DNA of 32,496 bases from a bacterium. GTDB taxonomy: Bacteria; Patescibacteriota; Minisyncoccia; UBA6257; JAGOQP01. The position numbers and the translations under genes are program-made. Position 1 is the stretch's first letter. Each line of letters opens with the position of its first letter. Below the pieces are notes generated by a model. The model saw only the letters and a program-made list of their open reading frames with translations, did not search any database and had not been told where the DNA came from. This document shows positions 698 through 29,469 of the stretch, in pieces. The stretch is taken from NCBI GenBank assembly GCA_021780615.1, contig JAJXYJ010000002.1:1-32496 (forward strand). Direction: 5' to 3'.

Positions 698-1153
698 ATG
701 ACATGGGATTATATAGCAGGATTCTTCGATGGAGAAGGATCTGTTTGCCATAATGGTAAGGGGTATAGGATTACCATAGCTCAGACGAATGAGGATGTTT
801 TAAAAGATATCATCTCTTTTAGTGGGGTTGGGAGCGTCGTTAAGGTGACTAAGCGTAAAAAACATTGGAAGGATAGCTGGGTATATTACATTGCGAATCA
901 AAAAGATGTATATTTTTTTCTAGGGAAAATATTGCCATTTCTTGTGGTAAAGAAAAAACACGCTGAGGGAGTTGTGGTTTTTCTCACCCGATATCTAAAA
1001 GAAAAAGAATTACATGAGCAATTAGTAAAAGAAAAGATTAATCATGCAATAAAAATGAGGGCAAAAAAGCGTCCTTATAGAGAAATAGGAGAAAAAGTTG
1101 GTCTTGACTGGAGTTATGTGAGGCGTATATTGATGAAGCGTGGAATTCACTAA
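698..1153 (+). CDS. Free-standing LAGLIDADG-family homing endonuclease-like protein
   Basis: N-terminal YIAGFFDGEGSV is a LAGLIDADG motif. 151 aa with one visible motif; C-terminal helix-turn-helix-like segment (YREIGEKVGLDWSYVRRIL). Confidence 0.85.
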   Translation: MTWDYIAGFFDGEGSVCHNGKGYRITIAQTNEDVLKDIISFSGVGSVVKVTKRKKHWKDSWVYYIANQKDVYFFLGKILPFLVVKKKHAEGVVVFLTRYLKEKELHEQLVKEKINHAIKMRAKKRPYREIGEKVGLDWSYVRRILMKRGIH

Positions 1154-1270: not shown

Positions 1271-1384
1271 ATGTGACCAGGGATTTGAAGGGTGTATAAA
1301 AGGGAAAAAATATCACAATCTTCCATTTCACAAAAAATGTTATTTGTATTAGTATATATGTATAATCTAATACCCATGTTTTAA

Positions 1385-1530
1385 GCCTAAATAACACGGG
1401 TAAAAGCAGTTCAAGGTAATAAGCTCTTTGTCAGAGCACTTTGAACGGCCATACCAGAAAACTGGTATGGATGGGGTATACCCCATCGCTGGTGGGAATC
1501 TTTTTGGTTAAGGTCGATCTATCATCAGAG
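1385..1530 (+). promoter_or_regulatory. Structured 5' leader or ncRNA of unknown class upstream of a surface-protein gene
   Basis: Consecutive helices: GTTCAAGG/CTTTGAAC enclosing GCTCT/AGAGC, CCATACCAG-aaaa-CTGGTATGG, and the palindrome ATGGGGTATACCCCAT. Confidence 0.5.
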
Positions 1531-28485: not shown

Positions 28486-28582
28486 CCATAGACGTTGCTT
28501 TATAAAAAAATATTGTGCATAGTAGTGGAGCGATAATAAGTGGCACGATATGGTTGTGTATAAAACAGATGGAATCCATAGT

Positions 28583-28806
28583 GCGTGGGTGGCGGAGTGG
28601 TTAATCGCATCCCGATAGTGTATCTTTATAGCTGTTCAATTCTATAGTGCGTGGGTGGCGGAGTGGTCAATCGCATCAGACTGTAAATCTGACGCCCGTT
28701 GGGCTACGTAGGTTCAAATCCTACCCCACGCACTATGAATTGAACAATTTCTCACTATCGGGACGCCCGTTGGGCTACGTAGGTTCAAATCCTACCCCAC
28801 GCACCA
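28583..28806 (+). other. Outer tRNA-Tyr-like shell (class II tRNA body with encoded CCA) whose anticodon loop is replaced by an insert containing a complete tRNA-Tyr
   Basis: 5' half GCGTGGGTGGCGGAGTGGTTAATCGCATCCCGATAGTG (28583-28620) and 3' half CACTATCGGGACGCCCGTTGGGCTACGTAGGTTCAAATCCTACCCCACGCACCA (28753-28806) form acceptor, D, variable and T arms. TCCCGATAGTG/CACTATCGGGA is an 11-bp extended anticodon stem. Confidence 0.8.
28649..28732 (+). tRNA. Inner tRNA-Tyr(GTA)
   Basis: Acceptor GCGTGGG/CCCACGC, anticodon stem TCAGA/TCTGA with loop CTGTAAA, long variable arm CGCCCGTTGGGCTACG region, T-arm GTAGG-TTCAAAT-CCTAC, A73. Followed by CTA, not CCA. Confidence 0.93.
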
Positions 28807-28873
28807 TGGATTCGATGTGTTGCAAAAGGCGTATGACTGTTATGGACGCACTTTTTTAAATACAAAATGTATT

Positions 28874-28945: not shown

Positions 28946-29116
28946 CAGGGATAGTTATCAACCTCCAGTTTTCAATGATCAATAAATTTCCAATTGGTCG
29001 GTTTTGTGATTTTTGTATATCTTCTGGAGTATGGAAGATATTAAAAATTAGTATCTTATGCTTATTGCCAAAGGAGTAGTCTTTTGCTAGGATGTGTTAG
29101 TTACTCATATACAAAA

Positions 29117-29383
29117 GCCGATGTAGCTCAGTTGGTAGAGCAACTCCATGGTAAACATTTGCCCATTGTGGTGGAAACGCCTCAATGAACCTCGAATTAC
29201 GGTTAAAGGCCATCCGCATGGTTCAGACCGTCCCGCCCTAGGCGGGCGAACGACTGACAAGAGGAGCTAACCCTTGTATGAGGTATGCTCAAGATACAGT
29301 CTAATCCTTCTATATAAAGCGGATAAGTAAAAAGAAGGTAGAAATGAAGGAGTAGGTCCGCAGTTCAAATCTGCGCATCGGCT
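29117..29383 (+). tRNA. tRNA-Thr(GGT) interrupted by an intron in the anticodon loop
   Basis: Acceptor GCCGATG/CATCGGC; exons 29117-29162 and 29347-29383 rejoin anticodon stem ACTCC/GGAGT with loop ATGGTAA. Confidence 0.9.
29163..29346 (+). other. Group I self-splicing intron (~184 nt, no ORF)
   Basis: S-element-like CTCAAGATACAGTC; P7 GACTG/CAGTC; R-like GGTTCAGAC; P8 GAGC/GCTC; hairpin CCCGCC-cta-GGCGGG; 5' exon ends in T, intron ends in G. Confidence 0.82.
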
Positions 29384-29469
29384 CATGTGGCTTTTTTAAA
29401 TAAAGAAGAAATGCGCTTGCTTTTTGTGTCGCGACAAGGTATAGTGGCAACTATTGAATTTCATCGCAT

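Follow-up and report, generated by a model that had tools for sequence, protein, structure and literature searches.

MITEs, REPINs and Rickettsia palindromic elements are short inverted repeats scattered through the genome, and we know of no element of this type that carries a complete tRNA gene within a cognate tRNA. Bacterial tRNA genes can be interrupted in the anticodon loop by group I introns, or targeted at their 3' ends by mobile elements that rebuild the native gene at the junction. Archaeal tRNA introns, which a protein endonuclease excises at a bulge-helix-bulge, and split or permuted tRNAs also disrupt tRNA genes in the anticodon region (PMC4390854). In tRNA-dependent lysogeny, mycobacteriophage Fionnbharth and others integrate in the anticodon loop of a host tRNA and carry a tRNA of the same isotype (PMC10865867). 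The window presented here, a stretch of 32,496 nucleotides from a member of the Patescibacteria, bears a complete tRNA-Tyr gene nested within another one. No description of nested tRNA genes was found in the open-access literature searched (nested or interrupted tRNAs, Parcubacteria palindromic elements). We consider it probable that a tRNA cassette bounded by a palindrome disrupts the resident tRNA gene and takes its place in a single step, leaving a dead outer body around a working inner tRNA.

Anatomy of the tRNA-Tyr nest

The nest consists of two tRNA-Tyr halves which flank a whole tRNA-Tyr(GTA) and are linked to it via complementary arms (Table 1). ARAGORN and Rfam call the inner gene alone at this locus (64.7 bits). 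Inner and outer copies are connected by two direct repeats, one of 37 nt (28575-28611 and 28641-28677, 95% identity), which differs by a T/C in the D loop and a C/T in the leader, and one of 51 nt (28691-28741 and 28762-28812, 96% identity), which includes the trailer; the 43-nt 3' tRNA half shows no differences. The arms pair over 14 nt (28607-28620 with 28753-28766, 93%), and a flanking helix (28564-28589 with 28796-28821, 88%) lengthens the outer acceptor stem. The 261-nt region has a predicted fold of -120 kcal/mol (z = -8.8 vs shuffles), in which the outer tRNA-like body leads through the arm helix to the inner tRNA. Sequence, repeats, ARAGORN/Rfam and fold thus confirm the preliminary description of a whole tRNA-Tyr within the halves of a second tRNA-Tyr-like gene. 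Its statement that the halves are nearly identical to the inner gene also stands, while its junctions are refined, as the junction TC and GA are present in the intact gene too. What the outer copy misses is the entire anticodon arm TCAGACTGTAAATCTGA, hence its halves, however joined, cannot give a tRNA-Tyr and the non-decoding nature proposed for the outer body is borne out.

Table 1. Features of the nested tRNA-Tyr locus (positions in the window).
Feature	Position	Strand	Description	Evidence
Outer leader	28564..28582	+	pairs with trailer 28803-28821	inverted-repeat search (I1)
Outer tRNA-Tyr-like 5' half	28583..28611	+	acceptor 5' strand and D arm, stops at anticodon arm	sequence, repeats
Left palindrome arm	28610..28620	+	TCCCGATAGTG	inverted repeat I4, predicted fold
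Inner leader	28634..28648	+	pairs with inner trailer, lengthens acceptor stem	fold, inverted repeat I5
Inner complete tRNA-Tyr(GTA)	28649..28732	+	no encoded CCA	ARAGORN, Rfam
Inner trailer	28733..28749	+	partner of inner leader	fold, repeat search
Right palindrome arm	28753..28763	+	CACTATCGGGA	inverted repeat I4, fold
Outer tRNA-Tyr-like 3' half	28762..28806	+	variable arm, T arm, acceptor 3' strand, A73, encoded CCA	sequence, repeats

The insert between the outer halves is about 150 nt long and contains no gene except the tRNA. The nest locus is single copy in the 612-kb assembly (estimated 96% complete), whose 28 tRNA matches include as long ones five Leu, two Ser and one Tyr. The inner gene is the sole tRNA-Tyr found in this genome (G000) and the sole gene called at the locus, which supports the earlier view of the inner tRNA as functional-looking. 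Because the outer anticodon arm is lost and the inner gene is the sole tRNA-Tyr found, the outer body is, judging from sequence, most likely a dead gene and not a spliced or scaffold RNA.

Other tRNA-associated features were located in the window and in related genomes. The tRNA-Thr(GGT) at 29117-29388 (+) has its anticodon loop interrupted by a group-I-intron-like insert (Rfam Intron_gpI, 16 bits, below cut-off), the exons of which would join to the perfect loop ATGGT/AA; the same arrangement occurs in G011 (L003, 2551-2820). A 151-aa ORF at 698-1153 (+), between tRNA-Phe and tRNA-His, matches LAGLIDADG_3 and may be a free-standing homing endonuclease, and a LOOT RNA (RF03000, 52.8 bits) is located at 1384-1487 (+), downstream of tRNA-His. 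In G003, the end of a 271-aa HTH and LAGLIDADG_3 protein (L034, 195-1010 (-), 5e-20) overlaps the 5' end of tRNA-Tyr. Another type of tRNA-associated insertion appears at L031, L003, L005 and L006 (Tyr) and at L040 and L041 (Trp), where a complete tRNA without CCA is followed by a 100-190 nt insert and then by a short stretch repeating the tRNA 3' end, which in some cases includes CCA; several of these inserts contain an inverted T-arm copy.

Recurrence of nests across Patescibacteria

At least 18 other genomes of the class proved, in pattern searches, to contain tRNA-in-tRNA nests that keep two matching outer halves, and nests were also found across Patescibacteria (Kerfeld-, Levy-, Berkel-, Roizman- and Giovannonibacteria, among others); the search for the same arrangement proposed in the preliminary description has yielded nests in many genomes. 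Their isotypes include Thr, Val, Ile, Gly, Ala, Met, Trp, Phe, Cys, Ser and Tyr, and in the nests read the inner isotype equals the outer one. Being pattern-based, these searches missed many nests. The first pattern, two D arms too near each other for tandem genes, matched 55 of 384 genomes of the class, and many of the loci read were true nests (a Thr, Val, Ile or Gly tRNA within one of its own isotype, as well as Ala, Met and Trp). Tyr, Cys and Ser nests came from a second pattern, which gave 16 hits against 2 for its reversed form used as control. Among genomes of the same family no further Tyr nest was found, and G001 has a tRNA-Trp within a tRNA-Trp. An independent Tyr nest (L309) has its anticodon arm replaced likewise, a different, still-paired outer acceptor stem and its own arms. 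Repeated insertion would lead to nests three or four deep: L100 is a complete three-level nest (5'-5'-whole-3'-3') with all outer halves present and matching acceptor stems, and L099 has four successive 5' parts (three halves and a whole gene) with a single 3' half. The window's genome also holds a second nest (L094, contig C3, from 4394 onward), a tRNA-Val(CAC) within a Val-like 5' half and arms, the outer 3' half of which is mostly lost.

Independent assemblies, some with contigs as long as 857 and 923 kb, also carry nests. This recurrence in many genomes and on long contigs, together with the diverged inner and outer copies and the complementary arms, makes it very unlikely that the window's nest is an assembly chimera.

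In a scan of named GTDB genomes, at least 117 stretches carried the pattern. Among the matches listed for this one pattern, both outer halves were present in 9 of 21 Patescibacteria against 1 of 96 other stretches, and a 3' half or complementary arms in 10/21 against 4/96 (p = 2.7e-6, likewise among the matches listed). Outside Patescibacteria, a nest-like tRNA-Ala was observed in Lentisphaerae (L214, MHBQ01000037.1), with the break TTCG/CAA, the palindrome TCCCGAGGCGC at the 3' junction and a longer insert. Viral stretches with the same pattern had both halves in 0 of 71 and held no nest, on which grounds a viral origin was rejected. A related explanation takes the nest as the relic of a larger element, phage or integrative, which entered by tRNA-dependent integration and was deleted down to its tRNA, in line with the phages known to enter the anticodon loop of a host tRNA with a same-isotype tRNA (PMC10865867). 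We regard it as improbable, since the inserts, with their complementary arms, are short and symmetric, neither larger intermediates nor an integrase were seen, and the 71 viral stretches with the pattern held no nest.

Palindromic arms and the fate of the outer gene

The arms fall into several sequence families. They differ among nests yet remain complementary, as 99% of cells pair and 8 of 10 pairs are changed on both sides, in arms picked by eye, a choice that favours this outcome. The preliminary description had asked for relatives whose extra helices carry compensatory changes, and such relatives exist. An integron attC-like reading of GTTAGAT/ATCTAAC was dropped because the arms differ between nests in a compensated manner. 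Folding was computed for 19 nests: the mean probability of the inner acceptor stem was 0.88 in native sequences, 0.83 with random complementary arms and 0.64 with random non-complementary ones (p = 2e-4); in L009 and L104, as exceptions, the native sequence is not predicted to form it. By these calculations the arms help the inner tRNA to fold, and by folding onto each other they would prevent mispairing between the outer halves and the inner tRNA.

The window's own arm CTATCGGGA has 7 copies in its genome, near chance frequency, and these arms were rejected as a high-copy element. In some genomes, CCCCGTTAGA/TCTAACGGGG is a palindromic element present in many copies that differ in their contents, and its half-sites number 63 in G286, 45 in G295 and 47 in G299. 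All ten anticodon loops broken by CCCCGTTAGA enclose a whole tRNA of the same isotype and no CCCCGTTAGA-broken anticodon loop without an inner tRNA was found, whereas the copies read outside tRNA genes mostly enclose other DNA. The contrast speaks against a rescue of the outer gene by splicing, and for a model in which an insertion survives only when it brings a replacement. Concerning other locations, reading of the sequence placed CCCCGTTAGA palindromes within two pilin genes of G286, where they are inserted in frame at the signal peptide (L284, L285; ..GFTPLEI..KFLTGFTLIEL..), like Rickettsia palindromic elements. Bacteroidetes tRNA fragments (L184, L185, L253) carry a D-loop palindrome, CCCGATAGCTATCGGG, equal to the arm sequence of the window's nest.

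Under a splicing model the insert would behave like an intron: the outer halves would be ligated into a second working tRNA, and the intron would release the inner tRNA. Exact removal between positions 35 and 36 would restore a perfect loop at L224 (TTCG/TAA), L279 (TTCA/TAA), L078 (CTTA/TAC), L092 (CTTC/CAA) and L033 (CTCC/AAA), and the exons of the interrupted tRNA-Thr(GGT) in the same window would join correctly around their group-I-like insert. However, no anticodon is left in the outer copy of either the window's nest or L309, the Thr(TGT) outer copies of L009, L077, L104, L108 and L121, from distant genomes, are short of 3 nt of stem and variable loop beside the junction, and many others lack a 3' half or bear T-loop palindromes. 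Splicing would moreover allow broken loops without an inner tRNA, of which none was found for CCCCGTTAGA, and the group I intron core (RF00028) has no match in 28583-28806, with a weak match over the neighbouring tRNA-Thr region (29009-29321). A spliced nest therefore has a low probability, and the unusual processing or splicing route among the roles offered earlier did not find support.

Probable resident and newcomer copies

Outer copies were met in every state of decay, with 3' halves lost, palindromes in T loops and anticodon stems gone, although many keep fully paired acceptor and T stems. These paired stems, and the stable fold of the whole, would suit an outer body selected as a scaffold or chaperone domain for the inner tRNA. 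Against it, many outer copies are damaged or half lost around an intact inner tRNA, and inner types stand uninterrupted in relatives; we consider such a domain very improbable, and the maintained scaffold or protective RNA suggested before did not find support. A dead outer gene, which would decay over time, is favoured instead.

The two states of a site could be compared directly for Trp. The uninterrupted tRNA-Trp of G010 and G006, from the same family, has 97% identity to both outer halves in G001, whereas the inner tRNA of this nest is of another type, one that stands without outer halves in G008, G005 and G011. This comparison of empty and filled sites points to the outer copy as the resident and the inner one as the newcomer. 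In most nests, the inner copy resembles the outer one no more than same-anticodon tRNAs from separate genomes resemble each other (mean of 0.82 vs 0.80 for the 5' halves). In the window, the halves are 97% and 100% identical to the inner gene and part of the leader and trailer is also alike, and in the Met nest L118 inner and outer halves are 100% identical; there, a local duplication is also allowed, and this near-identity points toward it and against a foreign cassette. As an explanation of the nests, a local accident, in which replication slippage or template switching places a duplicate of a tRNA gene within the anticodon hairpin of that gene, palindromes being by-products and no mobile cassette taking part, is rather unlikely, given the unlike copies of most nests, the foreign type of the Trp inner tRNA and the junction sequences that distant genomes have in common within an isotype. 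The 3-nt loss shared by the Thr(TGT) outer copies would be expected if the junction travels with the insert.

According to the replacement of a resident gene by a cassette, a small unit, a complete tRNA-Tyr gene flanked by two complementary arms, would have arrived as such and interrupted the anticodon arm of the resident tRNA-Tyr. The inner tRNA would be co-transcribed with the outer halves, the transcripts processed to the inner tRNA, and the latter would serve as the cell's working tRNA-Tyr. Since an insertion in a single-copy essential tRNA gene should survive only if a tRNA of the same kind is carried, matching inner and outer isotypes would follow, and with the eventual loss of the outer halves one tRNA gene would be fully replaced by another. 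Among the three roles offered in the preliminary description, selfish tRNA insertion is the best one. The wider reading, that a protein-free mobile cassette enters the anticodon arm of the cognate resident gene, kills it, becomes essential and spreads among Patescibacteria, is possible and we put it forward tentatively. No transposase, integrase or endonuclease linked to nests was found, the families tested being Y1 and LAGLIDADG_3. Y1 (REP-type) transposase, present in about 12 of 18 nest genomes against 7 of 14 others with no clear association and absent from the window's genome, gained no support as the mover, and the LAGLIDADG_3 homing endonuclease (9/19 against 7/14, no association) was rejected.

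Nests suggest an undescribed way for one tRNA gene to take over from another. As tRNA genes are highly conserved and essential, and mostly single copy in reduced genomes, their phylum-wide breakage and one-step replacement from inside would bear on the turnover of tRNA sets and the fixation of foreign tRNAs. If true, the mobile cassette would be a tRNA gene that moves and imposes itself, and would offer reduced genomes a general way of replacing tRNA genes. Annotation is affected because tools detect the inner gene only, and nests provide a natural setting in which to ask whether a tRNA can be processed by bacteria from the middle of another tRNA.

Comparison with known systems

Nests share the interruption of the anticodon loop with group I introns of bacterial tRNAs, but the nest has no catalytic core and an inner tRNA instead, and its exons are not joinable to a working tRNA, as the outer anticodon arm is absent. 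Archaeal tRNA introns and split or permuted tRNAs are alike in the disrupted anticodon region; they hold no complete tRNA inside (PMC4390854), and the anatomy of nests does not suggest archaeal-type introns. With mobile elements at tRNA 3' ends they have in common the tRNA gene as target and the partial tRNA copies that remain, although in nests the gene would be destroyed and a whole tRNA lies inside. The inverted-repeat ends of MITEs and REPINs are found in nests as well, and the CCCCGTTAGA family resembles these and the Rickettsia palindromic elements in being dispersed in some genomes and in its in-frame copies in pilin genes, whereas the window's arms are not amplified in their genome. 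Finally, as in tRNA-dependent lysogeny (PMC10865867), nests break a single-copy host tRNA at the anticodon without rebuilding it and the same-isotype tRNA of the insert would take over. That system involves a whole phage with a tyrosine integrase, a short att core and the tRNA elsewhere in the phage genome, without complementary arms or nesting, while the nest insert is protein-free. Although they fall outside its membership, having no integrase or phage genes on the insert, nests would by analogy work like a minimal, protein-free form of tRNA-dependent lysogeny.
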